The translations under genes and the position numbers were made by a program. Below, one piece after another: positions 30,075 to 46,586 of a DNA stretch of 64,000 nt; position 1 is the stretch's first letter; every line of letters starts with the position of its first letter. This DNA comes from Nitrosomonas sp. (GTDB lineage: Bacteria > Pseudomonadota > Gammaproteobacteria > Burkholderiales > Nitrosomonadaceae): positions 372,001 to 436,000 of the forward strand of contig JAMXAG010000001.1 of assembly GCA_024281675.1 (NCBI GenBank), read 5' to 3'. Below the pieces are notes generated by a model. That model did no database searches and was not told where the DNA came from. It saw nothing but the letters and a program-made list of their open reading frames with translations.

Positions 30075-31925
30075 ATGTGTGGAATAGTTGGTGCAATTGC
30101 TAAAGTAAATGTCGTGCCAATATTATTAGAAGGATTATCACGTCTTGAATACCGCGGCTATGATTCGGCTGGACTCGTTGTAACAAAAAATGGCTTGTTG
30201 GATAGAGTCCGTACCCAGGGTCGCGTGGCTGAGTTGAGTAAGCTTGCAGCAAATAGTGACAAGCAAGGTTTTGCTGGTATTGCGCATACCCGTTGGGCAA
30301 CGCATGGAGAGCCTTCTGAGCGTAACGCGCATCCACATTTCTCTGAAAGAAAATCCAAGATTGCGGTAGTACATAACGGAATTATCGAGAATCATGAAGA
30401 TATACGTACTGAACTCAAAAAACATGGCTATGAATTTTTATCTGATACCGATACCGAAGTCATTGTTCATTTGATCGCCTTTAAGCTTGAACAAGAAAAG
30501 GATTTATTCAAAGCGGTTTGCTTATCACTTACTGAATTACATGGCGCTTATGCGATTGCAGTGATGGAAGAAACTAATCCGGAACGGATTATCGTTGCGC
30601 GAAACGGCGCTCCTTTATTGATAGGAGTGGGGGAGAGTGGCAATTATATTGCTTCGGATACTTCTGCTTTGTTGCAGGCGACACGTAAAATTATTTATTT
30701 GGAAGAAGGCGATGTAGCTGAAATCAGCACGCATGGTTATCGTATTGTAAATTGTTTAAACAATCATTTGGGCGATCCAGTTGAACGTTCGATTCATGAA
30801 AGTCATTTATCGAACGAAGCACTTGAGTTAGGTCCCTATGCGCATTTCATGCAAAAAGAAATATTTGAACAACCAAGTGCTGTGGGTAATACCCTAGAGA
30901 TGGTATTCAATGCACAATCAATTTCTCCTAATTTATTTGGCAGTGAAGCAAAGGAAATATTTTCTCAAACAAAAGGCATTCTGATTTTAGCTTGTGGCAC
31001 CAGTTATCATGCTGGTTTAGTAGCGCGATATTGGCTTGAGACGGTAGCTGGAATGCCTTGTAACGTTGAGATTGCCAGTGAATATCGCTATCGAGATCCC
31101 ATTGCAGATCCGAATACATTGGTTATTGGTATTTCGCAATCCGGAGAGACCGCGGATACTTTGGCAGCATTGAATTATGCCAAAAAATTGGGGCATCGAT
31201 ATAGTCTTGCGATTTGTAATGTGCCTGAAAGTGCACTTGTGCGGCAAGCCGATTTGCGTTTCTTAACGCGTGCAGGACCAGAAATTGGTGTGGCATCGAC
31301 GAAAGCGTTTACCACACAACTTGCATCACTGTTGTTATTAACCATAACCTTGGCAAAACTCCATCGCAGCTTATCCGCAGACACTGAGCAGCAAATGATC
31401 GCAGCGTTACGACATTTACCGGTAGCATTGCAGCATGCTTTACAAGTTGAACCACAAGTAAAAGCTTGGGCAAAGAAATTTTCAGAAAAGCGCCATGCCT
31501 TGTTTCTCGGACGAGGTGTCCACTATCCCATTGCGATGGAGGGTGCATTAAAGCTCAAGGAAATTTCTTATATTCATGCCGAAGCATATGCAGCAGGGGA
31601 ATTGAAGCATGGTCCGCTCGCTTTGGTAGATAACGAAATGCCAATCGTCGCAATTGCACCTAATGATCAATTACTCGGTAAGCTTAAATCAAATTTGCAA
31701 GAAGTTCATGCACGCGGCGGGGAACTCTACGTGTTTGCTGATGCCGATTCGCAAATTGAAGAAAGCAAGAATGTTCATGTGATCCGGTTATCTGAGCATG
31801 CGGGTTTGCTGAGCCCTATACTTCACACGATTCCACTACAAATGCTGGCTTATCATGTGGCTTTAGAAAAAGGGACTGACGTTGATAAACCGCGTAATCT
31901 GGCGAAAGCAGTAACGGTTGAGTAA
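30075..31925 (+). CDS. glmS: Glutamine--fructose-6-phosphate aminotransferase
   Basis: Forms glucosamine-6-phosphate from fructose-6-phosphate and glutamine, the first committed step toward UDP-GlcNAc. The 616-residue protein begins MCGIVGAIA with the catalytic N-terminal Cys of a class II glutaminase domain. Two SIS domains follow ([16 protein letters not shown] and [38 protein letters not shown]), and it ends [12 protein letters not shown]. It follows glmU by 56 bases with an AAGGAG site, so the two probably share a transcript. Confidence 0.98.
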
Positions 31926-32740
31926 TGCTTTCAGGATTCTGAGCAAGCTCCTGAAGAAAATAATGTAAAGCCAGTTTCTTAGAAATTATCTGATGAAAAT
32001 GGATGGCTTGATTTTTAATCTATTTCTGAGATGGAGAATTCAATTGAATTAATAGGCAATTGAGTTTTTGAGAAAAAATCACTGCTGATTTTCGATATTG
32101 GAATATTTTGAGACTCCCAATAAACAATCTAGCATTTGTTTTTTCTCAACCGTAACATCATCCTTTGCTCTCAAATCTTCAACAATCTTTACCTATCGTT
32201 GAGTAAATTATGTAGTGGTTGGTCCATTCGTAAATCGTAACCAACATCCGTTGTCTCCTAAAAATTAGCTAAATTATCAGGAAAATTTCTTGGCGGAATA
32301 ATTTAAATTTTCTCCTTCCAGATAGATACCCTGGGTACTTGGATATATCATGCTGAAGCGATAGCAATTCATTGGCAGTAATTCCAAAAGAGTTACGTGA
32401 ATTTGGGTTCATAAAACTGTCTGTGCATTAATTCACATTGTTGTTTTTAGTTTGGGGTTATACTAAAACCTGAAAAGAGTGGTTTGTACGACCCAAGTAA
32501 TACTAACTAACCATATTCTTTTGATAAGTATACTCAATACAACTTTATCTCAATGAAAGATAAAATAAAAAAGTGATCAATATTATTAGACGAAGAACAA
32601 TTGAGATTTTTTAACATTGAATGCTGGTTTAATTACCGGAGTAAGGGGGTTTGTAGCTATCAGTAAATGTAAGATCTAATTAACCAGGCATTTTAATGCT
32701 GACCAAAGTTTGGCATTTGAATTTATAAGGGGTGATAAAA
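31926..32740. other. 815-base gene-free region before the oxidase cluster
   Basis: No supported gene. It is more AT-rich than its surroundings and has many stops in all frames. Minus-strand open stretches (for example 32269-32412, 47 codons starting ATG) show no ribosome binding site and no recognisable family; they could be a decayed gene. An inverted repeat GGTTGGT at 32217-32223 with ACCAAC at 32240-32245 is present. Any promoter for the downstream cluster should lie here, but I see no strong -35/-10 pair. Confidence 0.4.
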
Positions 32741-33196
32741 ATGAATAGCACAGTAAAAACCTTGTTAAGCAAATCCCGTGAAGAACTCGATGAAATCTAT
32801 CGTAATGCTACGCCGGGAGACATTCCATCTGGTGATACAAGTGGTACAGCGATTCTGGCAGGATCAATCTTCTCAAAAATTGTAGCGATTTTTGCGCGTC
32901 TCTTGGTGTGGCAAGGTAAAGTGTTCGATTTATTTTGCCCGGGTGGCCACGCGGGTTTGCTAGTCAATAAGATTACTCCGTTTGGTTTGACGTTTGTTGT
33001 CGCAAAGGTTTATCGTGACAAAAGCTGGCTCGATGGCAAAGACACCATCGTCATCGATTATTCTAAAACCTCATTTGTTGCCAAAGTGATCCGCGATGAA
33101 ATTCGTGAGATCGAACCGGGTGTTTATCTTGGAAAGGTATGGTGGGGCAAAACACGTATATTGGATTTTGCTTTGACACAGAATAAATCTGAGTAA
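32741..33196 (+). CDS. Hypothetical small protein, first gene of haem-oxidase cluster
   Basis: A 151-residue protein of unknown function. I chose the ATG at 32741 over the GTG at 32732 because AAGGGG lies eight bases before the ATG. A hydrophobic patch (SIFSKIVAIFARLLVWQGKVFDLF, residues about 46-70) may associate with a membrane. The conserved-looking C-terminal part reads IVIDYSKTS, then VIRDEIREIEPGVYLGKVWWG, a beta-rich pattern that suggests a small ligand-binding or lipocalin-like fold; that is only a guess. It is 29 bases from the next gene and clearly in its transcription unit. Confidence 0.7.
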   Translation: MNSTVKTLLSKSREELDEIYRNATPGDIPSGDTSGTAILAGSIFSKIVAIFARLLVWQGKVFDLFCPGGHAGLLVNKITPFGLTFVVAKVYRDKSWLDGKDTIVIDYSKTSFVAKVIRDEIREIEPGVYLGKVWWGKTRILDFALTQNKSE

Positions 33197-33225
33197 AAGT
33201 CGTCTAATTTTTGTGAGATAGAATT

Positions 33226-34530
33226 ATGACACCTCAATCGACTTTCATGATTGTCGCGACCGTAAGTGTTGGGCAATTAAAAAAACTAAGAGATTTATTA
33301 GGGGCCATGAATAAAATTCCCGGCCACGCTGATCCAGAAAATGCATTGATTCCGTTTTGTAAGTTTGATCAATTGCATTTTGCACGTTTTGTCATCATTG
33401 AAGCAAATACTGCGCATGAAATTCGTGAGTTTGGTGTAAATCCAAGACCTTGGAGGCCTGCTCTTGCTTTCCTGGGGGATGTTGATGGTGATATGCATGC
33501 TTTTCTTGCCGATCTTGTTAACAACGCCGAACCAGGATTGAAAGCAATCTTTTCGCATTGCGAAGATTTCTCGGAAGAAAATCTGGATATGCTGCAATGG
33601 TTGCAGGCACATGACATCAGGCCTAATGCTAACTACGTTAACTGGTTAGGCCGGACTGTTAAGCAAATTCGTGAAGAAGTAATCTTGCATCAAACCTTAT
33701 CCCGCTATTTGCAAGAAATTGCTCATGATGTTGACTGGGAAGATATTCGTACAGTACGGCAAAAACTCCTATCCCATGTTGAAATGGAAAAACATAAAGG
33801 TAGGCTTACGTTGTCACTACCGGAACCGACATCCAGAGAATGGAAAATCAGAAATCTATTCCACTTGTTAGGGGTGCCACTGATCTTATTGATTTTATCT
33901 CCACTTTTATTAATCGCTCTTCCTTTTTTTGCATTGCGTTTACGAATGTTGGAGCGTTCCGACCCAGAGCTCTTTATCCGGCCTAGTTACGAGCATGTCA
34001 AGGTGCTTTCGGTACAGGAAGACTGGGACGTTAGTAATCAATATAGTGTGTTTGGAGACGTAAAGCCGGGTTTATTCCGCCTATTAACGTTTAAATTCAT
34101 CCTGATGCTGACTAACTACTTTGCGAGACATGTCTACAATCGTGGATTTCTTGCACGAATAAAAACAATTCATTTTGCTCGCTGGGTATTTATGGACAAT
34201 AACCATAGAGTTTTCTTTGCCAGCAATTATGATGGTAGCCATGAAAGTTATATGGATGACTTTATCAATAAAGTTGGCTGGGGTCTAAATCTTACTTTTA
34301 GTAATGCTGTTGGTTATCCCACCACGACATGGATGATTAAAGAAGGTGCGCAGCGTGAACATGCATTCAAGTATACGCAACGGCGCCATCAAATACCTAC
34401 CGAAGTTTGGTACAAAGCTTATCCTGGATTAACAGCCGTTGATTTGGCACGTAATAGCCGTATTCGGCAAGGCATTGAAATCCGTCAAGAAAATGATGCT
34501 GAAATCCGTGAGTGGCTGAGGTTGATCTGA
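33226..34530 (+). CDS. Membrane protein of two similar halves, unknown function
   Basis: A 434-residue protein that I do not recognise. Each half carries a strand with the motif HFAR: residues 51-54 (LHFARFVIIEA) and 316-319 (IHFARWVFMD). Each HFAR strand is followed by an acidic, Gly-containing stretch, which suggests two copies of a ferredoxin-like alpha+beta domain, the fold that DyP peroxidases also use. Between them, residues 211-238 form a membrane hairpin (LLGVPLILLILSPLLLIALPFF). It lies 16 bases before the DyP-type peroxidase gene. The position suggests a membrane partner or substrate-presenting subunit for the haem enzymes. No haem ligand can be assigned. Confidence 0.75.
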   Translation: MTPQSTFMIVATVSVGQLKKLRDLLGAMNKIPGHADPENALIPFCKFDQLHFARFVIIEANTAHEIREFGVNPRPWRPALAFLGDVDGDMHAFLADLVNNAEPGLKAIFSHCEDFSEENLDMLQWLQAHDIRPNANYVNWLGRTVKQIREEVILHQTLSRYLQEIAHDVDWEDIRTVRQKLLSHVEMEKHKGRLTLSLPEPTSREWKIRNLFHLLGVPLILLILSPLLLIALPFFALRLRMLERSDPELFIRPSYEHVKVLSVQEDWDVSNQYSVFGDVKPGLFRLLTFKFILMLTNYFARHVYNRGFLARIKTIHFARWVFMDNNHRVFFASNYDGSHESYMDDFINKVGWGLNLTFSNAVGYPTTTWMIKEGAQREHAFKYTQRRHQIPTEVWYKAYPGLTAVDLARNSRIRQGIEIRQENDAEIREWLRLI

Positions 34531-34546
34531 GTTAGGAGTATAGGGA

Positions 34547-36064
34547 ATGAAAAAAACTAGTGACTTTGAATTCAATGACCTGCAAGGGCTATTGCGCTTT
34601 GGATATGGCGGTTTAACCGACACTTGTTTCATGCTGCTCGATGTTGTCAATGTCGATATGGCTAGAGAATGGCTTTCTACAGCGCCAATCAGTAGTGGAA
34701 TTAAAGCATCATCCTTACCTGATACTGCAATGCAAATTGCTTTCTCAAAGGAAGGATTGAGTGCATTGGAAATCAGTAAAACGATTATTGATGGATTTTC
34801 TGATGAATTCATTTACGGCATGGTTAGGAGTGACAATTGTTCTCGTCGGCTCGGAGATGTTGGGCATAATGCGCCAAAATCATGGAAATGGGGTAACAAT
34901 GCGGTACCGCATGTCCTATTGCTGCTTTATGCCAAACAAGGGGGTATCGATGCCTGGAGAAAAACTGTAGAAGATGAGCTGTTTAAGAAAGCTTTCCGGT
35001 TGATTAGACTTTTACCTACTACGGACACCGGTGGTAACCGAATGGAACCTTTTGGATTCGAAGATGGTATTAGCCAACCGACAATTGATTGGGCACTTCG
35101 CCAAGGTACTGATCCACATGAGCGTGATCGTTATTCCAATCTATTGGCCGCTGGAGAAATGGTGCTAGGTTACAAAAATGAATATGGTCAATATACAGAA
35201 CGACCACTGATTGATCCCGCAAAAGATCCATTAGCAGAACATTTGCCGAATGCTGAAGATGATCCGACTTTAAAAGATTTTGCTCGTAATGGTACCTATT
35301 TAATTCTTCGGGAATTAGGCCAAGATGTTCCAGGCTTTTGGCAATTTCTTGATAAAGTGTCAGACTCAGAACCCAATAAGCGCGAAAAACTGGCAGCATT
35401 TATGGTTGGTAGAGAACGTGATGGAACACCATTAATTGCCGAACACATCCCAGGAGTTTCACGAAAAGATCATGGTAATAATTTTACCTATGATCTTGAC
35501 GCTAATGGGGTTCATTGTCCCATTAGCGCACACGTTCGTCGAGCGAACCCACGTACAGGTGATCTGCCATCAGGTGTAACTGGTTTTATCAGTCAATTGA
35601 TCAGAATCCTTGGTTTTGGACAAAAGAATCATGATGCCGACCTTGTGGCATCATCTCGTTTTCATCGCATATTGCGTCGCGGCCGTAGCTATGGCCCGAC
35701 ACTTTCTCCGGAAGAAGCTATTCAACCGGATGCGCCAATTGCTGAGCGTGGGCTACAGTTTATTTGTCTTGCTGCCAATATTTCAAGGCAGTTTGAGTTC
35801 GTTCAAAACTCCTGGATTATCAATAGTAAATTTGGTGGGTTACAACAAGAAAGTGATCCCTTGCTGGGGGATCGAGAGCCATTACTGAGTGGCGAAAATA
35901 CAGACCAATTTAACCATCTTGATTCATTAGGAGCAAAGCAAAAAGTTTGTCATCTACCGAATTTTGTTACTGTTCATGGCGGTGGGTATTTTTTTATGCC
36001 GGGGCTGCGCGCATTGAAATATATCTCATCCTTAACTACTAAGGGGAGTCATAACGAGTCATGA
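34547..36064 (+). CDS. DyP-type peroxidase
   Basis: A haem peroxidase of the dye-decolourising family, 505 residues, at the long end of the family. The GXXDG motif is GFEDG at 170-174, supplying the distal catalytic Asp173. The proximal haem ligand is most likely His329 in SAHVRRANPR, and a conserved Arg-rich block RILRRGRSYGP follows at about 374-383. There is no Tat or Sec signal, so it is probably cytoplasmic. DyPs oxidise dyes, lignin-like phenols and carotenoids, and some act on haem; here the neighbours suggest a hydroperoxide or lipid-derived substrate (inference). Its stop codon overlaps the ATG of the catalase-related gene (ATGA). Confidence 0.9.
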   Translation: MKKTSDFEFNDLQGLLRFGYGGLTDTCFMLLDVVNVDMAREWLSTAPISSGIKASSLPDTAMQIAFSKEGLSALEISKTIIDGFSDEFIYGMVRSDNCSRRLGDVGHNAPKSWKWGNNAVPHVLLLLYAKQGGIDAWRKTVEDELFKKAFRLIRLLPTTDTGGNRMEPFGFEDGISQPTIDWALRQGTDPHERDRYSNLLAAGEMVLGYKNEYGQYTERPLIDPAKDPLAEHLPNAEDDPTLKDFARNGTYLILRELGQDVPGFWQFLDKVSDSEPNKREKLAAFMVGRERDGTPLIAEHIPGVSRKDHGNNFTYDLDANGVHCPISAHVRRANPRTGDLPSGVTGFISQLIRILGFGQKNHDADLVASSRFHRILRRGRSYGPTLSPEEAIQPDAPIAERGLQFICLAANISRQFEFVQNSWIINSKFGGLQQESDPLLGDREPLLSGENTDQFNHLDSLGAKQKVCHLPNFVTVHGGGYFFMPGLRALKYISSLTTKGSHNES

Positions 36065-37269
36065 GGAAAATTAAGGATCGTATACTAAAAAGTATTCACA
36101 ACTTTTTAATTCAATTGCTGCGCATTGAACGTCGATTAGAACCATGGTTTCGTCCGCAGTGGGATTTTCTATTCCGTGAACCCGGTTCAAGATTTATCCA
36201 GTTTCTTATCAATCGGCGACGTAAAAACGAAGGCTTGAAATTAGCCGAGGAAAGATTCGATCCAGATGAAGAAGAGAGCCTCAATAAAATTATCGACCAG
36301 ATGATGGATCAGATGCGCGGCCGTTTCAAACCAAGCGGATATGAGCGAGGGGGTAATACCAAAACACATGGTATCGTGCGAGCAACAGTAACCATACGAG
36401 ATGATCTTCCAGAGCACTGTCGTAAAGGTATTTTTGCAACTCCCGGAACCTATCCTGCCTATGTACGCTACTCTGGTCCTGGCCCCAATGTGCCCGCTGA
36501 TATCAATGATGTGGGTTTTATGAGTATGGCGGTTAAATTGATGGGGGTTCCCGGTACAAAACTCATGAGCGAAGAGAAGTATACGCAAGACTTTATAGCC
36601 ACAAGTGGCGGGGCAACATTTGTTACGCCTAATACGCGAGAAAATGCCAAATTACAGTATTGGAGTTTGGTGGATATGACACTCTACTATTTTCTTAATC
36701 CTAAGGATTCTCACTTACTTGATTTTTTCATGCAGAGTCTGTGGAATGCAACGCAATATAATCCTTTAGGACAGCGTTATTGGAGCTGCACGCCTTATCT
36801 ATTGGGTGAAGGACAAGCCATGATGTATTCATTTGTGCCGAAATCAGCATCGGAAGTGGAGACGCATATTCCTGAACTGCCGTTTGGCACTCCCCCATTT
36901 AATTATCTACGAGAGAATATGATCAAAACGCTGAATGAGAAAGATGTCGAGTTTGATCTTATGATTCAAGTACAAACGGATCCTCATTTAATGCCTATTG
37001 AAGACAGTTCAGTACGTTGGCCAGAAAAGCTTTCTTCATTTATTCCAGCTGCTACTGTGCATATCCCGAAACAGAAATTCGATTCTGATGCACAGTTTGG
37101 ATTTGGTAAGCAATTGAAAATGAATCCTTGGCATTGCCTTTCCGAGCACCGGCCATTGGGCAACATTAACAGGGCGCGTTTTAGGCTGTACTTTGAGTTA
37201 TCCAAATTCCGTCAAGAGATGAATGAAACGACACACGTTGAGCCAACAGGTGATGAAAAATTTGAATAA
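36061..37269 (+). CDS. Catalase-related haem protein (mini-catalase, AOS/HPL-like)
   Basis: A 402-residue haem protein of the catalase superfamily lacking the usual C-terminal extension. The distal His103 is in KTHGIVRA; it is preceded by Thr102, where true catalases have Val. In coral allene oxide synthase the same Thr-His pair is known, and changing that Thr to Val confers catalase activity. The proximal tyrosine ligand is Tyr377 in the RxxxY motif (Arg373-Tyr377) within LGNINRARFRLYFELSKFR. I do not see a clear distal Asn (the region reads FIATSGGATF). Such proteins convert fatty-acid hydroperoxides to allene oxides or aldehydes. Coupled to the DyP gene by a four-base overlap. Confidence 0.88.
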   Translation: MRKIKDRILKSIHNFLIQLLRIERRLEPWFRPQWDFLFREPGSRFIQFLINRRRKNEGLKLAEERFDPDEEESLNKIIDQMMDQMRGRFKPSGYERGGNTKTHGIVRATVTIRDDLPEHCRKGIFATPGTYPAYVRYSGPGPNVPADINDVGFMSMAVKLMGVPGTKLMSEEKYTQDFIATSGGATFVTPNTRENAKLQYWSLVDMTLYYFLNPKDSHLLDFFMQSLWNATQYNPLGQRYWSCTPYLLGEGQAMMYSFVPKSASEVETHIPELPFGTPPFNYLRENMIKTLNEKDVEFDLMIQVQTDPHLMPIEDSSVRWPEKLSSFIPAATVHIPKQKFDSDAQFGFGKQLKMNPWHCLSEHRPLGNINRARFRLYFELSKFRQEMNETTHVEPTGDEKFE

Positions 37270-37395
37270 CTAAATGAATTCATTAGAGAACCTTAATGCT
37301 TAGTATTTTCTAGGCTTGGTGATAAACATACATGTTCTTTAAGTTTCTCGTGCATTACAAAACAATATTCTAGTGGCAATTTTTAGGAGGCTATC

Positions 37396-40062
37396 ATGAA
37401 GAAATTTAACAAAATAATTGTTTTTCTCGGATTCAGTATGGGGGTCTTTCTCACCGGTTGTTTTGAAAAGCCGACTTTAAAAATTGCCAGTGAGTGTATT
37501 AAAGGTGGTACTCCGAAGACAGGATCAATTCTCGATGAGGCGTTATGCGTTAATCGAACAGCGGATAGTTTTCCTGGAGCGGATGAAGATTACTTTAAAG
37601 AGATGGACAATAAAATTTCTCAGCAGCCTGATAAAGTGGTTGCTGCTTTAGAGCCATTTATTCCGGGTATTTCGGGTAATCCGGATGAAGCTATCAAGTC
37701 ATTAGTGAGGGGGCGTAATAACTGGATTGTCTGGACTGGCGGCAATGATAAGTTTTGGGATTTTATGAATGTTAAAAGCCTGGGCAGTTTTGATCTGTTA
37801 AAAGTCTTGTCAAATCACCCTGGACTTCAAAAAGAACCGGGATATAGCCGCGATAATAGGTGGAATTGGTTCGGTATTGTCAATGAGCCATGTTTTATGA
37901 AAAACACAGATGCTCAAGGTAAATTGGTGGGTCACCCCGATCGCTTTGGGTTGTACTTGGATATCCGTGACTCAAATTGTGCTTCCGATCCTTTTGAAGA
38001 TGAGAAAAAATATCCTGGTGTTCAGATTGGGTCACGTGGAAAGACTGTACCTGTGGGTTCTTACTACGGATATGCAAGTGGTGTGATAGGTCTACGGTTG
38101 TTCCCTAATCCTGATTTCGATGAAGCTGCAAAGAAACATTGGAATCCTGAAAAATATTACAACGATCCTGCGTACTATACCAATCCCAAATTGGTTAGAC
38201 CTTATCGGGTAGGTATGTCGTGTGCGTTTTGTCATGTTGGACCTAATCCCACTAATCCACCTAAGGATCCAGAAAATCCTGAGTGGGCTAATCTGACATC
38301 TAATCCAGGTGCGCAATATTTCTGGTTCGATAAAGTATTTGCTTATGAAGCGGACAAATCAAGCTTCGCCTATCAACATCTTCATACCAACCGTCCTGGT
38401 GCTTTAGATACTTCATTGATTTCAACAGACTACATCAATAATCCTCGCACTATGAATGCAGTTTATAACCTTCCTGCTCGTATGTTGAATGCACTACGCT
38501 GGGGTCAAGAAGAAATAAATGGCGGTGAAAGAGATAATAGACAATTTAATCATTATGAAAAAATACCGGCGAATAGTCCTTTGAGAGATTTTTTTATTGA
38601 ACCGGATAAGGTGCTTACACCGAGAGTTCTTAAAGATGGCTCGGATTCAGTAGGCGGATTAGGTGCTTTAAATCGTGTTTTTGTTAACATAGGTTTATTC
38701 AGTGAGGAATGGTTACAGCACATTAATCCATTAGTGGGAGGAAAGCCCTTTACGCCTTTCCCGATTAAGGTAGCCAAACAAAATTCTAGCTATTGGAATG
38801 CCACTGAATTGCAAACCCTCGATACAGCGGTGTTTTTCCTGGCAGCTACTCCACCAGACCATCTGAGAGATACTTCGGTTGGTGATCAATATCTAACTCA
38901 AGATGAGGGAGTGTTAAAACGAGGAAAAGAGGTGTTTGCAGAAAACTGCGCAGCCTGTCATTCCAGCAAACTTCCAGAAGAAGCAACCAAATTCTTTCCA
39001 AATAAAGGATGCGTTGGGCCTAATTATCTGAGTTGCTGGAGTGAATATTGGACTTGGACCAACTCAGCTGAATTTAAGGAAAGCATGAAGAAAATCGTAT
39101 TAGAAGAAGATTTTCTCAAAGAAAACTACCTTTCGACTGAGTTGCGTGTTCCAGTCACCTTACTGGAAACCAACATTTGTGCTTCTATAGCGACTAATGC
39201 AATCAAGGGGGATACCTGGGATAACTTTTCATCAACTTCCTATAAAAAATTACCTCCAGTTGGAAGTGCTCTCATACATCATCCTGTTACTCGCAAGCCG
39301 CAAGAATATAAGATGCCGGATGGTGGTAGAGGTTACATTCGTCCGCCTTCCCTTACTAGTATCTGGTCAACGGCCCCTTTCCTATTGAACAATACCTTAG
39401 GTAAGTTTTATCCGTCAGGGTCCATAGAAGACCGCATGAAATCATTTGATATCAGTATTGAACAACTGCTATGGCCAGAGAAGCGCTACTGCGATCAAAG
39501 TGATTTATACGCTGAGTACGATAGTGGTCAATATGCGAAAAAATATGCATCAGGTGGTGCAGTAAACAGTTGTGAAGGAAAAACTTATCTGACTCGGTCA
39601 GGTAAAGAAATACCCGGTATCGTTGATCGTACAACAGAAAGAAGTTGGTTAAAGGTTCCGGAAAATTATTTACCTTGGTATGTAAGAATGCTTCCGATTG
39701 GAGATGGGCTAGAACTCGGGCCTTTCCCTAAAGGTACGCCAGTAAATCTAATTTCGAATATAAATATAGAAATGGGTTGGGGCGATCGGCTATCACTTGC
39801 AGCAGATTTCTTGAAAATTCTACCGTGGCATATATTGGATATGTGGAAAGCAAAAGAATATCCGGATAGTATTTCAGACGAAGAGCTACATCAGATTTTC
39901 GGAACGCTGGCGGATCCTTTACTGGAAGTAAACAAATGCCCGGACTTTGTTACCAATCGAGGACACTATTTTGGCACAGATTATTTACCGGTGTCAGAAG
40001 GCAGGGGAGTGCTTAACGATGGTGACAAACGTGCGCTCATCGAGTTTTTGAAAACGATGTAA
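37396..40062 (+). CDS. Large di-haem cytochrome c lipoprotein
   Basis: An 888-residue exported protein with a lipoprotein signal (LTGC, Cys22 lipidated) and two CXXCH haem sites: CAFCH at 276-280 and CAACH at 518-522. Two c-haems far apart in a long chain recall the CcpA/MauG/RoxA di-haem superfamily, whose members are peroxidases or, in RoxA, a dioxygenase that cleaves polyisoprene. It is longer than those (CcpA about 350 residues, RoxA about 680). It would sit on the periplasmic side and could donate or accept electrons for the dioxygenase lipoprotein encoded downstream, or itself oxygenate a substrate. A good TAGGAGG site precedes it. It is separated by 126 bases from the catalase-related gene. 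Confidence 0.85.
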   Translation: MKKFNKIIVFLGFSMGVFLTGCFEKPTLKIASECIKGGTPKTGSILDEALCVNRTADSFPGADEDYFKEMDNKISQQPDKVVAALEPFIPGISGNPDEAIKSLVRGRNNWIVWTGGNDKFWDFMNVKSLGSFDLLKVLSNHPGLQKEPGYSRDNRWNWFGIVNEPCFMKNTDAQGKLVGHPDRFGLYLDIRDSNCASDPFEDEKKYPGVQIGSRGKTVPVGSYYGYASGVIGLRLFPNPDFDEAAKKHWNPEKYYNDPAYYTNPKLVRPYRVGMSCAFCHVGPNPTNPPKDPENPEWANLTSNPGAQYFWFDKVFAYEADKSSFAYQHLHTNRPGALDTSLISTDYINNPRTMNAVYNLPARMLNALRWGQEEINGGERDNRQFNHYEKIPANSPLRDFFIEPDKVLTPRVLKDGSDSVGGLGALNRVFVNIGLFSEEWLQHINPLVGGKPFTPFPIKVAKQNSSYWNATELQTLDTAVFFLAATPPDHLRDTSVGDQYLTQDEGVLKRGKEVFAENCAACHSSKLPEEATKFFPNKGCVGPNYLSCWSEYWTWTNSAEFKESMKKIVLEEDFLKENYLSTELRVPVTLLETNICASIATNAIKGDTWDNFSSTSYKKLPPVGSALIHHPVTRKPQEYKMPDGGRGYIRPPSLTSIWSTAPFLLNNTLGKFYPSGSIEDRMKSFDISIEQLLWPEKRYCDQSDLYAEYDSGQYAKKYASGGAVNSCEGKTYLTRSGKEIPGIVDRTTERSWLKVPENYLPWYVRMLPIGDGLELGPFPKGTPVNLISNINIEMGWGDRLSLAADFLKILPWHILDMWKAKEYPDSISDEELHQIFGTLADPLLEVNKCPDFVTNRGHYFGTDYLPVSEGRGVLNDGDKRALIEFLKTM

Positions 40063-40074
40063 ATGTGGATCAAT

Positions 40075-40108
40075 CAAGTACTCTATGACACGTGTTGTAG
40101 AGTACTTG
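40075..40108 (+). terminator. Long hairpin between cytochrome c and GMC genes
   Basis: A perfect 11-bp stem, CAAGTACTCTA/TAGAGTACTTG, with a 12-base loop, beginning 12 bases after the cytochrome c stop. A CTTTTTCTCTT tract follows eight bases later. It probably terminates or attenuates transcription and splits the cluster into two units, or protects the upstream mRNA. Confidence 0.55.
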
Positions 40109-40264
40109 TCAACGAGCTTTTTCTCTTAGCGATGGTAGTGTCATTGATTGAAATTCAGAAAGCTTCTTGTTTTTGTGGGTAACAAATTTGTTTCTTTTCA
40201 ATTGACTTACCTTGCTCTTTGAAGTACTTGCTAATTATTTTGAAATGATTTAATAAAGGTAATT

Positions 40265-42157
40265 ATGGCGATGTCAGACTCTTTGAACACTGATCGGAAT
40301 GAAAACAGAGTGCACGAAAAGTATGATTTTATTGTTATAGGTTCCGGTGCGGGCGGGGGGCCGGTTGCCTGCAATTTGGCATTAAAAGGTTTTCGTGTGC
40401 TTCTGTTGGAAGCAGGAGGCGAAGATGAGCCCCTTGATTACCAAGTTCCAGCATTCCATGCACGCGCCTCAGAAAACGAAGCGCTTCGTTGGGACTACTT
40501 TGTTCGTCATTATGGCGATATCGATCAGCAAGAAAAAGATGAAAAATTCCGCAAGGAACAGGATGGAGTACTCTATCCGCGTTCTGGCACGCTGGGAGGA
40601 TGCACTGCCCATAATGCGATGGTCATGATGTATCCCCACAACAGTGATTGGGACTACATTGCCAAGTTAATGAATGATCCGACTTGGCATAGTAAAAATA
40701 TGCACAAGTATTTTAAGCGTCTAGAGCGTTGTGAATACATACCGAAATGGAAGTTTTGGAGCCGTTTGTGGAGCCGACATGGATTTGATGGCTGGTTACC
40801 AACCAGCATTGGAGATTCCACTATGTTACGCCAGGATAAGGTGTTGAAAAAGCTTATTGGTGCAGCGTTTAAAGAATCAATTTCGGAGTCATGGCATACG
40901 ACTCCGAACCCTATTAAAAGAATTTTCCGGATCATTTTAAAACTCAGGTCGCGCCTTGATCCTAACCACTGGCGTTTAATCCGTAGAAATCTAGAAGGAT
41001 TGAGCTCTATTCCCGTTACGATCCATCAAGGTAGAAGGGCAGGAACAAGAGAATACCTACAGCGGGTTCGTAAAGAATTTCCTGATAATTTAGTAATTAA
41101 GGCCAATACCTTGGTGCAGCGAGTGTTATTAGATGAGCATAACAAAGCTTATGGCGTCGAATATAGTATTGGCCCTCATCAATATCGCGCTGACCCAAAG
41201 CACAGGAAAGCAGATACTTTCAAAGCAGAGAAAGCTTTTGTAGAGAGAGAAGTAATCATTTCAGCAGGCGCCTTCAATACCCCTCAGTTGTTGATGCTGT
41301 CGGGAATTGGGCCTCGCGATGAACTAGAAAAACATCACATTGAAACTAAAGTCAATTTACCGGGTGTAGGGAAAAATCTACAAGACAGGTATGAAGTTGG
41401 CATTGTATCGAAACTCAAAGAAAATATACCCTTGATCAAAGGGATGAAATTACGACCACCCGAGGCCGGAGAAGAGGCCGATCCGCAATTTTCGTTATGG
41501 CTTCAGGGTGAAGGTCCGTACACAACCAATGGAGCCACAGTCGCACTCATAAAACGCTCTAAGCCTGACTTGCCAGATCCTGATCTACTCATCTTCGGAT
41601 TGTTGGGTAATTTTCGGGGCTACTATCCAACATACTCACAAGATATTGGTAAAGAAGAAAACATCTTTACTTGGGCTATTCTTAAAGCTCATACCAATAA
41701 TACTAATGGGTGTGTCAAATTAAGATCTAGTGATCCATGTGATACTCCCGACATTAATTTTCATTATTTTTTTGAGGGAGCAAACACAGAAGATGATCTT
41801 GAATCTGTTATCAATGGCGTTGAGACTGTAAGAAGAATTATTGATCGCTGTGGAGATTTGATAGAAAAAGAAATTTATCCTGGTGAAGCAATCAAAAATC
41901 GGGAAGATATCCGCAGCTTTGTTATGAACCAGGCATGGGGACACCACGCTTCCTGTACATGTAAAATGGGACCATCCAGTGATCTTATGTCAGTCGTTGA
42001 CAATCGATTCCGTGTCCATGGTACAAAAAACTTACGCATTGTAGATGCTTCTATTTTCCCCAAAATACCCGGCTTCTTTATTGTATCGGCTGTCTACATG
42101 ATTAGCGAGAAAGCAAGCGATGATATTATTGAGGATGCCATGCAAGACGATTTGTAA
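40265..42157 (+). CDS. GMC family FAD-dependent oxidoreductase
   Basis: A glucose-methanol-choline type flavoenzyme of 630 residues. The FAD dinucleotide-binding motif is IVIGSGAGGGPVA near residue 24, followed by LLLEAGG. The family blocks YPRSGTLGGCTAHNAM and EVIISAGAFNTPQLLMLSGIG are present, and a C-terminal WGHHASCTCKMG holds the catalytic His region. The usual second catalytic His/Asn segment reads KIPGFFIVSAVYMISEKA, a variant seen in a subset of the family. No signal peptide. It would oxidise an alcohol to an aldehyde or ketone; a hydroxylated fatty acid made by the neighbouring haem enzymes is a reasonable guess. The dioxygenase gene starts 13 bases after it. Confidence 0.9.
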   Translation: MAMSDSLNTDRNENRVHEKYDFIVIGSGAGGGPVACNLALKGFRVLLLEAGGEDEPLDYQVPAFHARASENEALRWDYFVRHYGDIDQQEKDEKFRKEQDGVLYPRSGTLGGCTAHNAMVMMYPHNSDWDYIAKLMNDPTWHSKNMHKYFKRLERCEYIPKWKFWSRLWSRHGFDGWLPTSIGDSTMLRQDKVLKKLIGAAFKESISESWHTTPNPIKRIFRIILKLRSRLDPNHWRLIRRNLEGLSSIPVTIHQGRRAGTREYLQRVRKEFPDNLVIKANTLVQRVLLDEHNKAYGVEYSIGPHQYRADPKHRKADTFKAEKAFVEREVIISAGAFNTPQLLMLSGIGPRDELEKHHIETKVNLPGVGKNLQDRYEVGIVSKLKENIPLIKGMKLRPPEAGEEADPQFSLWLQGEGPYTTNGATVALIKRSKPDLPDPDLLIFGLLGNFRGYYPTYSQDIGKEENIFTWAILKAHTNNTNGCVKLRSSDPCDTPDINFHYFFEGANTEDDLESVINGVETVRRIIDRCGDLIEKEIYPGEAIKNREDIRSFVMNQAWGHHASCTCKMGPSSDLMSVVDNRFRVHGTKNLRIVDASIFPKIPGFFIVSAVYMISEKASDDIIEDAMQDDL

Positions 42158-42170
42158 AAAAATACTGAGT

Positions 42171-45113
42171 ATGAGCACGCCCTATGGCTTGATTCATCGT
42201 ACTGGTTGTTCTAATCGGTTATTGTCCGTTCCTTGTTCGCGCATTCGCATCGTGTTGTTGTGTGTGATAGCTGGTTTTTCACTGCTCACTGGATGCAATG
42301 AATGGAAATCGGAGCAGCTATCCTGCCTCGAAGTACTCATGCAAGGCAATATTCAACAAGTTGCAAAAATAAGAGAGCAAAGATTTCTTGGGAAAATTCC
42401 GCCAAAAAGAGCCCATTGTTTGGGTGGAGATCATGCAGTAGCGCTTAATAGTAATCCTTGGTCTGATTGGCCAAATTATTGGGCTGCTGGAGATAAGACC
42501 TCACTGTCAATGGATGCGCCATTATTCGATACTATTTTTTTTAATTCTAATAAACGCGGGATCTTCGGGGCGCTCTACGAATTGGAATTACAGCGAATAG
42601 AACTGATCAAGTTTAATCTTTTTGACAATAACGGAACCTACGAAGCCTATATCAAAGGTTTCAACGATAAGCCTGGCCCAACGATACAAACTTGGCCAGA
42701 AATGCAGCTACCCCCAACGCACCCACATTTTAGCGAGATTGAAAATAACTCAGATGGGGTCTGTTCGGGAGAGTTGATTCGCTCCCGAACGATGACTGGA
42801 ATTTGCAATGATATCTATAATCCATTGATGGGCTCAACCCATCAGCTTTTTGCGCGCAATGTGCAATTTGAGTCTACTTTTCCTGAATTGGGATTGGATG
42901 AGTTAGCTAGAAATAGGCATGGAGAGCGGTTGGGTCTATTGAAGCCGGATCCACAAGTGATTAGCCGGAAATTATTCTCTCGCTTGCAATTGCAGCCCGA
43001 GAAATGTTTGAATGGTTATGGCTTGGATAGCAATACAAACGAAGCGGTATGTGATTACAGAGCGGTATCATCCTTTAATGTATTGGCAGCTTTCTGGATT
43101 CAGTTCATGACTCATGATTGGTTTTCGCACTTGGATGAAGAAGCCAATCAAACGGAGTGGATCAGTACGGGGTGTCATTCACAGCTAGAAAATGGAACTG
43201 ACCAACCGTTAACAGCCGCCATGATCGACAGCATCGGTTGTCGATCGGATGATAGGATCAATGCGGCGCCTGTTGCTGAAACTATATTTCCTGGCATGTT
43301 TACGCATGAAGGTAAACGTTATTTAAAACAAGCCCCGAAAACGACTCGAAACAATGTCACAGCTTGGTGGGATGCGTCGCAAATGTATGGATATGATGAA
43401 CGATCGACTCAGCGCGTGAAGCGAGATTCTGGCGATGCGGCTAAGCTATTGTTAGAGGGTATTGAAAACAATGCTGATGAGAGGAAGTCATTGGGTTATC
43501 TGCCCATTTTTGAATCAAATGATGCCATTAAACCAGAATGGTCGGGCCAAGAAGCAACGGCTTTTCCTGACAACTGGTCCATAGGGTTAAGTTTATTTCA
43601 TACCGTTTTTGCAAGAGAACATAATATTTTTGTTGATGCGTTCCGAAAGCAAGCAACTAGCACTCCACATGCGGATAGTGGCCTGAGAAATCCTTTGCAA
43701 CCTGAAACTGTTATTCGCTATAGGGATGTGACGCCCAACGAGTTATTCAATATTGCGCGGTTGGTTATTTCTGCTGAAATAGCCAAGATCCATACGATTG
43801 AATGGACAACACAGCTACTTTATAACGAGCCTTTATACCAAGGAATGAATGCTAACTGGTATGGTCTTTTTAAGGAACATGAAGGAATTACTGAAGCACT
43901 CAAAGAAATTACTCATCAACTGAATGATACTGGTGATGCTTATAAATCAAATAGCCTGTATTCAGTTTTTGCCAGTGGATCTGGTATTTTTGGACTAGGT
44001 AATCACCGTTACAAAGAAATACCCTTTTATTCGCTCACGAAGCAAACTCGCGAAGATTTATGGTCACTCAGAAATAATCATGATATTAATGGAGGAATCA
44101 ATCATTTCGGTTCTCCCTTTAATTTTCCTGAAGAATTTGTATCCGTATACAGATTGCATCCTTTGTTGCCCGATTTGATCGAGTATCGCGAGTGGAATCA
44201 CGATCCGAATGTTATTCAACAAAAAATACCCATTGTGGGTACTTTCCGAGACAAAGCAACCGAAGCGATGCGACAAAAAGGCCTGGCGAACTGGGCGTTG
44301 AGTATGGGGCGCCAGCGAGCAGGGGAATTAACGTTACGCAATCACCCATTGTTTTTGCAAAATTTGAAAATGCCGCATTTGCGCTCATTAACGCAGCAAA
44401 TTGATGTGGCTGCCCTGGATCTGATTCGTGATCGAGAACGAGGAATTCCTCGCTATAATGAATTTCGCAGACAATATGGGTTAAAACAACTCACTAGTTT
44501 TGAGGATTTCATTGATCCGAGATTATCCAAAGATTCTCCTGTACGACATGAGCAAGAGCAACTGGTAGAGACATTACGTGAACTCTATGGACAGCATCAG
44601 TGTGATGCATCTAAAAAGATTACCAATGCTCAGTTGAACGATGATCAATCTCCGATTAACGATTGTTTAGGGCACGAGCATGGTAGCGTCATCGACAACA
44701 TCGAAGATGTTGATACCATGGTAGGATGGCTTGCCGAATTCAAGAGACCACATGGATTTGCTATTTCGGAAACACAATTTGTGGTGTTTATTCTCAATGC
44801 ATCTCGAAGACTTTTTAGTGACCGGTTTTTTACTTCAAGTTTTCGCCCAGAGTTTTATTCAAACCTTGGAATCGAGTGGGTCATGAACGATGGGCCAGAT
44901 CCACAAATGATGGAACAAAGACCGTCCAATGGTCATCAGCAGCCAGTATCTCCGCTCAAACGTGTTTTTCTAAGGGTAATGCCAGAATTAACACATGAGT
45001 TACAGCATGTAATCAATGTATTCGATCCATGGAGAAGGGATCGTGGCGAGTATTACAGCACTCAATGGAAAATTAGATCTGAAATACAAAAGGATGACGT
45101 CGTGGACAAGTAA
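42171..45113 (+). CDS. Cyclooxygenase/alpha-dioxygenase-like haem dioxygenase lipoprotein
   Basis: A 980-residue member of the animal haem peroxidase superfamily, fatty-acid dioxygenase branch. The distal His315 is in FMTHDWFSH, the proximal His541 in AKIHTIEWT, and Tyr660 in VSVYRLHPLLPD aligns with the radical-forming Tyr385 of cyclooxygenase (LYxWHPLxPD). NNVTAWWDASQMYG is typical of the linoleate 10-DOX and alpha-DOX group. The N-terminus is a signal peptide ending LLTGC (Cys42), so it is an exported lipoprotein, unusual for this family. I chose the ATG at 42171; a 17-codon upstream extension would overlap the GMC gene. About 270 residues precede the catalytic domain and have no family I recognise. 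Confidence 0.9.
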   Translation: MSTPYGLIHRTGCSNRLLSVPCSRIRIVLLCVIAGFSLLTGCNEWKSEQLSCLEVLMQGNIQQVAKIREQRFLGKIPPKRAHCLGGDHAVALNSNPWSDWPNYWAAGDKTSLSMDAPLFDTIFFNSNKRGIFGALYELELQRIELIKFNLFDNNGTYEAYIKGFNDKPGPTIQTWPEMQLPPTHPHFSEIENNSDGVCSGELIRSRTMTGICNDIYNPLMGSTHQLFARNVQFESTFPELGLDELARNRHGERLGLLKPDPQVISRKLFSRLQLQPEKCLNGYGLDSNTNEAVCDYRAVSSFNVLAAFWIQFMTHDWFSHLDEEANQTEWISTGCHSQLENGTDQPLTAAMIDSIGCRSDDRINAAPVAETIFPGMFTHEGKRYLKQAPKTTRNNVTAWWDASQMYGYDERSTQRVKRDSGDAAKLLLEGIENNADERKSLGYLPIFESNDAIKPEWSGQEATAFPDNWSIGLSLFHTVFAREHNIFVDAFRKQATSTPHADSGLRNPLQPETVIRYRDVTPNELFNIARLVISAEIAKIHTIEWTTQLLYNEPLYQGMNANWYGLFKEHEGITEALKEITHQLNDTGDAYKSNSLYSVFASGSGIFGLGNHRYKEIPFYSLTKQTREDLWSLRNNHDINGGINHFGSPFNFPEEFVSVYRLHPLLPDLIEYREWNHDPNVIQQKIPIVGTFRDKATEAMRQKGLANWALSMGRQRAGELTLRNHPLFLQNLKMPHLRSLTQQIDVAALDLIRDRERGIPRYNEFRRQYGLKQLTSFEDFIDPRLSKDSPVRHEQEQLVETLRELYGQHQCDASKKITNAQLNDDQSPINDCLGHEHGSVIDNIEDVDTMVGWLAEFKRPHGFAISETQFVVFILNASRRLFSDRFFTSSFRPEFYSNLGIEWVMNDGPDPQMMEQRPSNGHQQPVSPLKRVFLRVMPELTHELQHVINVFDPWRRDRGEYYSTQWKIRSEIQKDDVVDK

Positions 45114-45156
45114 TTTGTATTATTCAGATCTAATCGTATTGAACACTTGAAGTAAG

Positions 45157-45215
45157 GCGTTACCAAGTTTGATATGGGTACTGAGTCCTTAAATCAAACT
45201 ACAGAGAGATAACGC
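45157..45215. repeat. Nested inverted repeat after the dioxygenase gene
   Basis: An inner 8-bp stem (AGTTTGAT 45166-45173, ATCAAACT 45193-45200) is enclosed by an outer 6-bp stem (GCGTTA 45157-45162, TAACGC 45210-45215). It lies between the convergent dioxygenase and DoxX genes. It may act as a terminator without a T-run, or be the relic of a small mobile element. Confidence 0.4.
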
Positions 45216-45260
45216 TTATGTTGCATAGTAACAATTCAAATTATTAAACACAAAGCAGGA

Positions 45261-45671
45261 TTACTCAATCTTTTCGAAGGACTTGTCTGCGGCATTCTTC
45301 GAGCTACGATTATCCAAACTGCAAGCACCTGCGCCATAAACAGCCAACAGCATTAATCCACCGGAAATCGCAATGTTTTTCATAAACATGATGGTTTGCA
45401 TTTGATCAGAAAAATTGTGATGAAAGAGTACGGCCGAGGCGATGGTAAATAGCGCGAGTGAGGCTGCAGCCAGCTTGGTTTGCCATCCGATGATAATGGC
45501 CAATCCTGCTCCAAGTTCCAGTAGTATTACCAGTGGCAGTAGCATGCCCGGCACTCCTACCGATTCCATGTAGCCTTGCGTGCCTTCATAGCCGCCTATT
45601 TTCTGCCACCCGGCGATTAAAAATAGGTGACCCAACATCATCCTTGCGATAACTTGTGTAATTTTTTCCAT
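45261..45671 (-). CDS. DoxX family membrane protein
   Basis: A 136-residue protein with four membrane helices, starting MEKITQVIARMMLGHLFLIAGWQKIGGYEG, which is typical of DoxX. The ATG at 45671 is preferred over 45710 because AAGGAA stands at the right distance. DoxX-like proteins are linked to redox or thiol stress and often share a transcript with pirin genes, as here: the pirin gene lies 45 bases upstream on the same strand. The reaction is unknown. Confidence 0.88.
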   Translation of the reverse strand: MEKITQVIARMMLGHLFLIAGWQKIGGYEGTQGYMESVGVPGMLLPLVILLELGAGLAIIIGWQTKLAAASLALFTIASAVLFHHNFSDQMQTIMFMKNIAISGGLMLLAVYGAGACSLDNRSSKNAADKSFEKIE

Positions 45672-45716
45672 TTTGAATTCCTTTTTTAAGCAGTGATAAA
45701 ATTGTTGCAATAAATA

Positions 45717-46586
45717 TCATGATTTCCGATTAACCCAGGCACGATTACGCACAAAATCATTGGCTTGGAAATCACGCATGGCTTGATCAATTTGTTCCTG
45801 TGTATTCATGACAAACGGGCCATGACGCGCAATGGGTTCATCAATCGGTTTACCGCTCCCAACAATCATGCGTGCGCCCTTTGGCCCAGCGACAAAATTC
45901 AGTGTGTTTTCCTCAGAATCAAGAATCATCAACGAATGTGTTGGTATATGTTGAGTGTTGGTGTGTCCAATCCCCTCAAAGACATACACAAAACTGTTAT
46001 TGCCTACTGGAAAAACATGGTGAAACTGTTTGCCAGGTTTAACTTGGATGTCAAAATGAACTACTTCTGTCAAATTATCCTCAATCGGTGCTTGGGCTTT
46101 GGCATATTGGCCGATTAAAACTTTCAAGCGGTAATCCGAAGTTTCCACAATGGGAAACGCATTTTCGGGAAACTCTTGATATTCCGGTTGATCCATTTTG
46201 TGTAAGGCAGGTAGGTTAATCCACAACTGGAAGCCACGCAGCAAGCCATTTTGTTGTTCCGGCATTTCAGAATGAATAATACCGCTTGCCGCTTTCATCC
46301 ACTGCGCCGATCCAGGCCCGAGGATACCGCTATTGCCCATGCTGTCCTGATGTTTCATCAAACCATCGATCATGTAGGTAAAAGTGCTAAATCCCCGGTG
46401 TGGATGAGATGGGAATCCAGCAATATAGTCGTTTGGATTATCGCTACTGATATGATCCAGTAATAAAAATGGATCAAAATTGCGCAATGTAGGTCCACCA
46501 ATGGTGCGATGTACGGTAACACCGGCGCCTTCCCGTACCGCTTCGGCGGGAATCAATCGTGCTGTGCTGATGACTGCTGTATCCAT
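45717..46586 (-). CDS. Pirin family protein
   Basis: A 289-residue bicupin. The N-terminal cupin carries the metal-binding His set in HPHRGFSTFTYMIDGLMKHQDS and later SEMPEQQNGLLRGFQLWINLP, both diagnostic for pirins; some bacterial members are quercetin dioxygenases and others regulate enzymes. The ATG at 46586 has an AAGGAGA site; the longer frame from 46643 adds 19 residues without support. It is divergent from a LysR-type gene and precedes doxX, a common regulator-target arrangement. Confidence 0.93.
   Translation of the reverse strand: MDTAVISTARLIPAEAVREGAGVTVHRTIGGPTLRNFDPFLLLDHISSDNPNDYIAGFPSHPHRGFSTFTYMIDGLMKHQDSMGNSGILGPGSAQWMKAASGIIHSEMPEQQNGLLRGFQLWINLPALHKMDQPEYQEFPENAFPIVETSDYRLKVLIGQYAKAQAPIEDNLTEVVHFDIQVKPGKQFHHVFPVGNNSFVYVFEGIGHTNTQHIPTHSLMILDSEENTLNFVAGPKGARMIVGSGKPIDEPIARHGPFVMNTQEQIDQAMRDFQANDFVRNRAWVNRKS

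Follow-up and report, generated by a model that had tools for sequence, protein, structure and literature searches.

Conserved linkage of a haem-protein gene cluster in Nitrosomonas and its putative role in an oxylipin-type pathway

Do seven neighbouring genes of a Nitrosomonas genome, encoding haem proteins, a flavoenzyme and two proteins of uncharacterised families, belong together, and if so, what might they do? The stretch analysed here (the window) comprises 64,000 nt of Nitrosomonas sp. (contig JAMXAG010000001.1 of assembly GCA_024281675.1, a genome of 2.81 Mb in 29 contigs). The ORF calls of the window confirmed seven open reading frames (ORFs) at 32741..45113, all on the + strand and labelled A to G in order along it; all positions given below are those of the whole window. 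An initial annotation had listed these same-strand genes in the order found here and had proposed that they form a single unit, which oxygenates and processes a lipid or isoprenoid. Our answer is that A to D constitute a core accompanied by variable sets of the other genes, and that an oxylipin-type pathway at the inner membrane is a modestly favoured explanation of the cluster.

A constant core with variable companions

A scan of genome contigs yielded 415 stretches encoding relatives of B, of which the 80 most similar to full-length B were retained, a choice that favours loci of the type carrying D. By record title, the hosts belong to Pseudomonadota, Acidobacteria, Verrucomicrobia, Planctomycetota, Desulfobacterales/Desulfocapsa and Sulfurovum, several being represented only by metagenome bins, and many are nitrifiers and methanotrophs. 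In 79 of the 80 loci C is the gene directly downstream of B, with both on one strand, and in the remaining locus the contig stops one base past B. Over all 80 loci, the counts are 78 for A, 79 for C, 75 for D, 44 for E, 38 for F and 33 for G. The two loci lacking A (L089 and L118, with upstream flanks of 8.0 and 9.6 kb) have either real gaps or A elsewhere; D is absent from five loci, namely L139, with flanks of 10 kb downstream but 3.3 kb upstream, and four whose sequence stops early. When the count was restricted to the 51 loci with at least 9 kb on either side of B (29 being set aside for a shorter flank), A, C and D were each found in 51/51. At an identity of at least 35%, E was found in 31 of these full-flank loci, F in 27 and G in 24; at any identity E was found in 32 and G in 26, that is, 19 loci are without a match to E.

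All seven genes occur together in 7 of the 51 full-flank loci, six of them from Nitrosomonas, so that the seven do co-occur outside the window. The remaining loci carry G together with a second catalase-related gene, hereafter d (17 loci), E and F without G (20), E alone (5) or G alone (2), where one of the five E-alone and both G-alone assignments rest on matches below 35%. A to D are thus the core, E-F and G vary, and the linkage that had been proposed for the window holds elsewhere but not as one fixed unit of seven genes. In other Nitrosomonas the same genes are clustered with E-F and G inverted; that the genes stay together although turned round points to selection on the gene set rather than to the persistence of one old operon. 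On a quick tree of 52 rows, with 17 of its 49 branches open and with L079, L082 and L109 scored as having none because their matches are below 35%, the E-F and G states are distributed mostly clade by clade, with seven state changes. Seven loci carry both, so that a replacement of E-F by G or the reverse is no more than suggested.

The genus itself gave a second view of the linkage. Among 61 Nitrosomonas genomes, full-length B is present in seven, and an eighth (G010) has a weak match only, of the P450 type described below. C (at least 66% identity) and D (at least 85%) are confined to exactly the same seven genomes; more distant DyP genes (11 genomes) and catalase-related genes (at most 39% identity, 20 further genomes) exist without full-length B. 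G is found at 63% identity or more in 6/61 genomes, all B-positive; in the seventh B-positive genome (G818), a homologue with about 40% identity to G lies roughly 2.5 kb away from B. With a limit of 50% identity, E is present in 8/61 genomes, seven of them B-positive. The view that the genes are chance neighbours is rejected in view of the conserved linkage of A, C and D to B in 51/51 loci and of the shared presence of B, C and D in Nitrosomonas.

Enzyme families and conserved residues

C (34547..36064, 505 aa) is a DyP-type haem peroxidase in which no signal peptide was seen. Its profile matches the PDB entries 8re3 (E-value 3e-80) and 8re2 (4e-79), and the Asp of the GxxDG motif, the proximal His and the distal Arg, which we take to be the catalytic residues of DyP peroxidases, are each kept in 76/76 rows (row counts for conserved residues include the window protein throughout). 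D (36061..37269, 402 aa) is a catalase-related haem protein of the allene oxide synthase/minicatalase type. The Pfam catalase model matches 2 of 10 members of the D alignment and misses the D of the window, but the D profile retrieves coral allene oxide synthase and minicatalase, that is, 1u5u (5.5e-8), 3dy5 and 3e4w, with nothing else at an E-value of 0.01 or less. The RxxxY motif, whose Tyr is presumably the proximal haem ligand, is kept in 76/76 rows, and the candidate distal His position is occupied by His in 61 rows, Gln in 13 and Tyr in 2. A further catalase-related gene of the source genome (G000:C1:151925-152881) is distant (37%) and contains a single in-frame TAA; similar ones occur in many Nitrosomonas.

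The two proteins at the start of the cluster, A and B, represent two uncharacterised families without a Pfam model. A (32741..33196, 151 aa) is a small protein without signal peptide; it is a predicted beta barrel, weakly lipocalin-like, and possibly a lipid carrier. B (33226..34530, 434 aa) contains two homologous modules (approximately residues 4-138 and 270-397), indicative of an internal duplication, separated by a hydrophobic helical hairpin (approximately 204-245). In structural models both modules adopt an ABM-type alpha+beta fold, with the ABM/SchA proteins of polyketide clusters as the nearest fold, in line with the two-module membrane protein described initially. For a DyP-like barrel in B the sequences give no signal (hhalign Prob 0.2 and 0.35 for the two modules against the C alignment), and neither DyP nor chlorite dismutase is among the 50 VIA matches listed for B, which excludes nothing. 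An anti-phage defence system was rejected, since the seven proteins and one P450-B-DyP polyprotein matched 0 PADLOC families at an E-value of 0.01 or less, and no match to B was found in the phage collection.

G (42171..45113) is a haem dioxygenase of the animal haem peroxidase superfamily with a lipoprotein-like start and a PF03098 match (E-value 2.9e-67). Its PDB matches are led by the plant alpha-dioxygenases 4kvj, 4kvl and 4hhr (4e-70 to 8e-66), followed at a distance by lactoperoxidase (7e-7), and no cyclooxygenase (COX) is among the 22 PDB sequences at 0.001 or less. The distal His, the proximal His and a Tyr located three positions ahead of the latter are each present in 27/27 rows; in alpha-dioxygenases the two His have these same roles and the Tyr is catalytic. 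G is therefore closest to fatty-acid alpha-dioxygenases, and it would be a putative producer of 2-hydroperoxides; of the COX-like dioxygenase lipoprotein annotated initially, the haem dioxygenase family stands and the likeness to cyclooxygenase does not. A further ORF of 1632 aa with an animal haem peroxidase domain lies on another contig of the source genome (C3; L157:6896-11794), and similar, very long ORFs (approximately 1590-1750 aa) are also present in B-negative Nitrosomonas genomes.

E (37396..40062, 888 aa) is a di-haem c-type protein with a lipobox-like LTGC at its N-terminus and two CxxCH motifs 242 residues apart, a pair kept in 42/42 rows and in keeping with the two-haem cytochrome c lipoprotein annotated initially. 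In scans that took 13 of the 41 E homologues, the family model NF040606 matched 13/13, RoxC 3/13 and RoxA 1/13. E thus appears to be a distant relative of the di-haem Ccp/RoxA oxygenases. RoxA as a close relative was rejected, 4b2n being absent from the PDB matches of the E profiles both at 0.01 and at 10. In the Nitrosospira loci L085, L087 and L088 a tyrosinase-domain gene adjoins E.

The RoxA-type similarity raises the question of whether the cluster might cleave an external isoprenoid or polymer for catabolism, with E as a RoxA-like oxygenase. The weak RoxC and RoxA matches just given would fit this, as would a RoxA-like cytochrome near B-DyP in locus L069; however, 4b2n fails to appear even up to an E-value of 10, 19 of the 51 full-flank loci have no E, and autotrophs are among the hosts. 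We regard this explanation as highly improbable; of the two substrates suggested initially, the lipid is supported and the isoprenoid only weakly so, through E.

F (40265..42157) is a flavoprotein oxidoreductase with GMC_oxred_N/C domains and no signal peptide seen; as with the DyP assignment of C, the family named initially holds in profile searches. Its nearest solved relatives are 8b7s and the fatty acid photodecarboxylases, and a His-His pair, which we assume to be the GMC active site, is kept in 38/38 rows. Among the 37 F homologues, the N-terminus shows a hydrophobic stretch in two, a twin-Arg-like motif in three and a lipobox-like motif in three, with starts uncertain in several rows. 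Of the 32 full-flank loci that match E at any identity, 27 also have F. That E and F travel together could indicate that F dehydrogenates an alcohol or aldehyde and passes the electrons through cytochrome E to the respiratory chain, and electron transfer through the cytochrome had been the role first proposed for E. Yet E looks exported in the window and F does not, and since E resembles the di-haem Ccp/RoxA oxygenases, plain electron transfer is not its favoured role. The proposal is thereby reduced to a rival that we consider distinctly unlikely.

Lipid enzymes and P450-type relatives

Evidence for a link with lipid oxygenation came from genes around and beyond the cluster. A lipoxygenase gene lies within the examined flanks of B in 11 of the 80 loci (Nitrosospira, Nitrosovibrio and some Nitrosomonas), seven of which have a second animal-haem-peroxidase gene beside it, and a patatin phospholipase gene directly follows D in 5/80. 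In the source genome, adjoining lipoxygenase and animal-haem-peroxidase genes lie on contig 20 (L156:7488-10947), away from the cluster; they are 80% and 82% identical to Nitrosospira proteins, and the same pair is found near B in Nitrosospira and Nitrosovibrio. Within the genus, lipoxygenase is present in 6/61 genomes, all among the seven with B, an overlap with p = 1.3e-7 under independence, a value that makes the association look too strong since the genomes are related. In G000, G024 and G813 the two genes are on separate contigs. The neighbouring lipoxygenase and patatin genes and the co-occurrence of lipoxygenase with B strengthen the proposal of a lipid-oxygenating unit. The one B-positive genome without lipoxygenase, G018, also has a G homologue split over several frames (C58:106930-109728), a state that may reflect decay of one pathway branch. 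A patatin-like gene (L023:4891-7683) and a gene with a Tle1-like phospholipase domain (L090:14076-15626) are further lipase-like neighbours of the cluster.

These data also bear on detoxification, according to which C, D, B and A would destroy accidental lipid hydroperoxides and radicals, with G and E as peroxidases of the same defence. The DyP and catalase-related folds are compatible with such a role, pirin and DoxX genes lie downstream of the cluster, and many hosts are nitrifiers or methanotrophs; both ammonia oxidisers and methanotrophs are exposed to strong oxidants. On the other hand, the dioxygenase Tyr of G is kept in 27/27 rows, lipoxygenase, a hydroperoxide maker, tracks the core in Nitrosomonas, and pirin and DoxX stand beside B in only one of the 34 loci searched for them (L020, a 97% relative). 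Detoxification is accordingly judged unlikely, though it carries some weight.

P450-type and D-type loci were brought together in a further set of 34 (5 plasmids, from 45 plasmid records of which these five were examined, and 29 genome stretches); five of the 34 repeat genomes among the 80. B was matched at 1e-6 or better in 33 of them (L071 reaching only 4e-6) and DyP was present in 34/34. The partner is a P450 in 16 loci and a catalase-related protein in 12, never both; among the tested neighbours of the six loci with neither are a degenerate P450 (L070), an exo/endonuclease-phosphatase family gene (L019 and L060) and the RoxA-like cytochrome of L069. In 9 of the 16 P450 loci, P450, B and DyP are fused as a single ORF of 1410 to 1544 residues. 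All 16 P450s have the ExxR and Cys motifs, and none is acidic at the acid-alcohol position (Pro in 15, Ala in 1), part of the I-helix pair that we take to be the usual catalytic acid of P450s; P450s without that acid often use hydroperoxides or peroxide. The replacement of an acid-less P450 by a catalase-related protein therefore fits a hydroperoxide-converting role for both. In L015-L017, L032, L057-L059, L061, L063 and L064, the gene that precedes P450-type B-DyP is a relative of adenylate/guanylate cyclases or of a 'SARP family' regulator, hinting that the P450 version is under signal control; the cyclase-like protein of L016 gave weak PADLOC PycC (E-value 0.0013) and TPR matches.

The exchange of partners could be taken further. 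A, B and DyP might form the core of a so far undescribed, membrane-anchored machine that converts lipid hydroperoxides with exchangeable haem partners (catalase-related protein, P450, alpha-dioxygenase or di-haem oxygenase), in which B itself would be catalytic and cyclise an unstable intermediate into cyclic jasmonate- or prostaglandin-like signals. We consider this a long shot.

The proposed pathway and its place among known systems

The explanation that we modestly favour is an oxylipin-type pathway at the inner membrane that makes and converts fatty-acid hydroperoxides. It draws on the observed protein families, catalytic residues, gene linkage, alternative D and P450 partners and lipoxygenase co-occurrence, and from these we infer substrate, flow, complex, topology and reactions. 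G and probably E, both resembling exported lipoproteins, would insert O2 into fatty acids to give hydroperoxides, and the lipoxygenase encoded elsewhere in the genome would be a further hydroperoxide maker. The double-barrel protein B, anchored in the membrane, would be a platform that holds C and D on the cytoplasmic side; C and D would turn the hydroperoxides into secondary products such as aldehydes, allene oxides, epoxides or ketones, the lipocalin-like A would carry lipid, and F would oxidise alcohol or aldehyde products as a finishing step.

Several points weigh against this pathway, which is drawn from sequence data. First, G would sit outside the membrane and C and D inside. The evidence for export is weak: the exported-lipoprotein status of G and E is read from the window N-termini, and a lipobox-like motif occurs in 5/26 homologues of G, 19/41 of E and 2/24 of d, with starts uncertain. 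Second, the most frequent gene set, E and F, lacks G (20/51). Moreover, among the B-negative Nitrosomonas genomes, G006 and G026 have remote homologues of G (41-55%, in pieces), and G035 has E. The E of the window scores 40.9 bits against NF040606, far below the cut-off of 150. In 15/76 rows of D, Gln or Tyr takes the place of the distal His, and d is without a distal His in 24/24 rows, in contrast to coral allene oxide synthase, which has one. Finally, lipoxygenases need polyunsaturated acids, and we know of no synthesis of such acids in Nitrosomonas.

Within the window, A-D and F-G each form a tight block, and E stands between the two: the intergenic spacings are 29 (A-B), 16 (B-C), -4 (C-D), 126 (D-E), 202 (E-F) and 13 (F-G) bases, and the tight spacings reported initially (29, 16, -4 and 13) are right with the start codons then used. 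The longest ORFs of A and G start further upstream, at 32732 and 42120. The starts at 32741 and 42171 agree with the 97%-alike relative L020, where the F-G gap is also 13, but starts in that comparison were picked as the nearest to the query, which hence lends no independent support. The B of another Nitrosomonas locus, L073, is 97% identical to that of the window. Just past the E stop, the E-F gap contains a palindrome of 17+17 nt (40075..40108; 88% complementary, no loop) that may be an operator or hairpin. No RNA element over threshold was found in the window, and its 28 consensus promoters and 14 terminators, compared with 34.9 and 11.1 in shuffles, represent no signal. Upstream of the cluster are glmU and glmS, and downstream are DoxX, pirin and a LysR regulator. 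The end of glmS is an insertion site of Tn7-like elements; 815 bases (31926-32740) separate glmS from the cluster start, and a repeat search of 31900-45900 revealed no obvious element ends.

Parts of such a system are already known, namely a dioxygenase with a catalase-related partner, cyanobacterial alpha-dioxygenases and di-haem fatty-acid oxygenases. According to the available part of PMC13049297, the hydroperoxide made by the linoleate 10S-dioxygenase of Nostoc punctiforme is taken up by a catalase-related hydroperoxide lyase; there too a bacterial dioxygenase, compared with COX, has a catalase-related partner from a separate gene, whereas here G is alpha-dioxygenase-like and is accompanied by DyP, the double ABM membrane protein, the small beta-barrel protein, the di-haem cytochrome and the GMC enzyme. 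The same source, as far as available, describes fungal dioxygenase-P450 fusions of the linoleate diol synthase family, which likewise join a hydroperoxide-forming part to a P450 part, but where a P450 is fused in B relatives, its partners are B and DyP and not a COX-like domain. Fatty-acid alpha-dioxygenases, with the roles of their Tyr and His, are known from plants and cyanobacteria (PMC8720084, in part). They are the closest solved relatives of G, which keeps the catalytic Tyr and proximal His and differs in having a lipoprotein-like start and a fixed set of gene neighbours; neither 'catalase' nor 'gene cluster' occurs in the available text of that paper. In the accessible portion of PMC4496055, the CxxCH spacing is 245 and 235 in the di-haem c-type fatty-acid enzymes PA2077/PA2078 (FadCcp, the oleate-diol synthase of Pseudomonas aeruginosa) and 199 in RoxA. 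E, likewise with two CxxCH, is close to the former two in spacing, but it is larger and far below the family cut-offs, and PA2077/PA2078 are likened to it by description. Among the titles listed in searches of the open-licence PubMed Central literature, none was recognised as this cluster, the B family, the A-B-DyP core, the alternative partners or the lipoxygenase link.

If the proposed pathway is true, free-living bacteria, including ammonia oxidisers and methanotrophs, would own an oxylipin gene set that ties the two families without a Pfam model to enzymes of the alpha-dioxygenase, lipoxygenase, catalase-related, DyP and P450 types. One branch of the DyP peroxidases would thereby gain a physiological role. 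The proposal is directly testable, as the genes are few and some are carried by cultured strains, and the cluster would provide a bacterial counterpart for comparing the dioxygenase/partner systems of eukaryotes.

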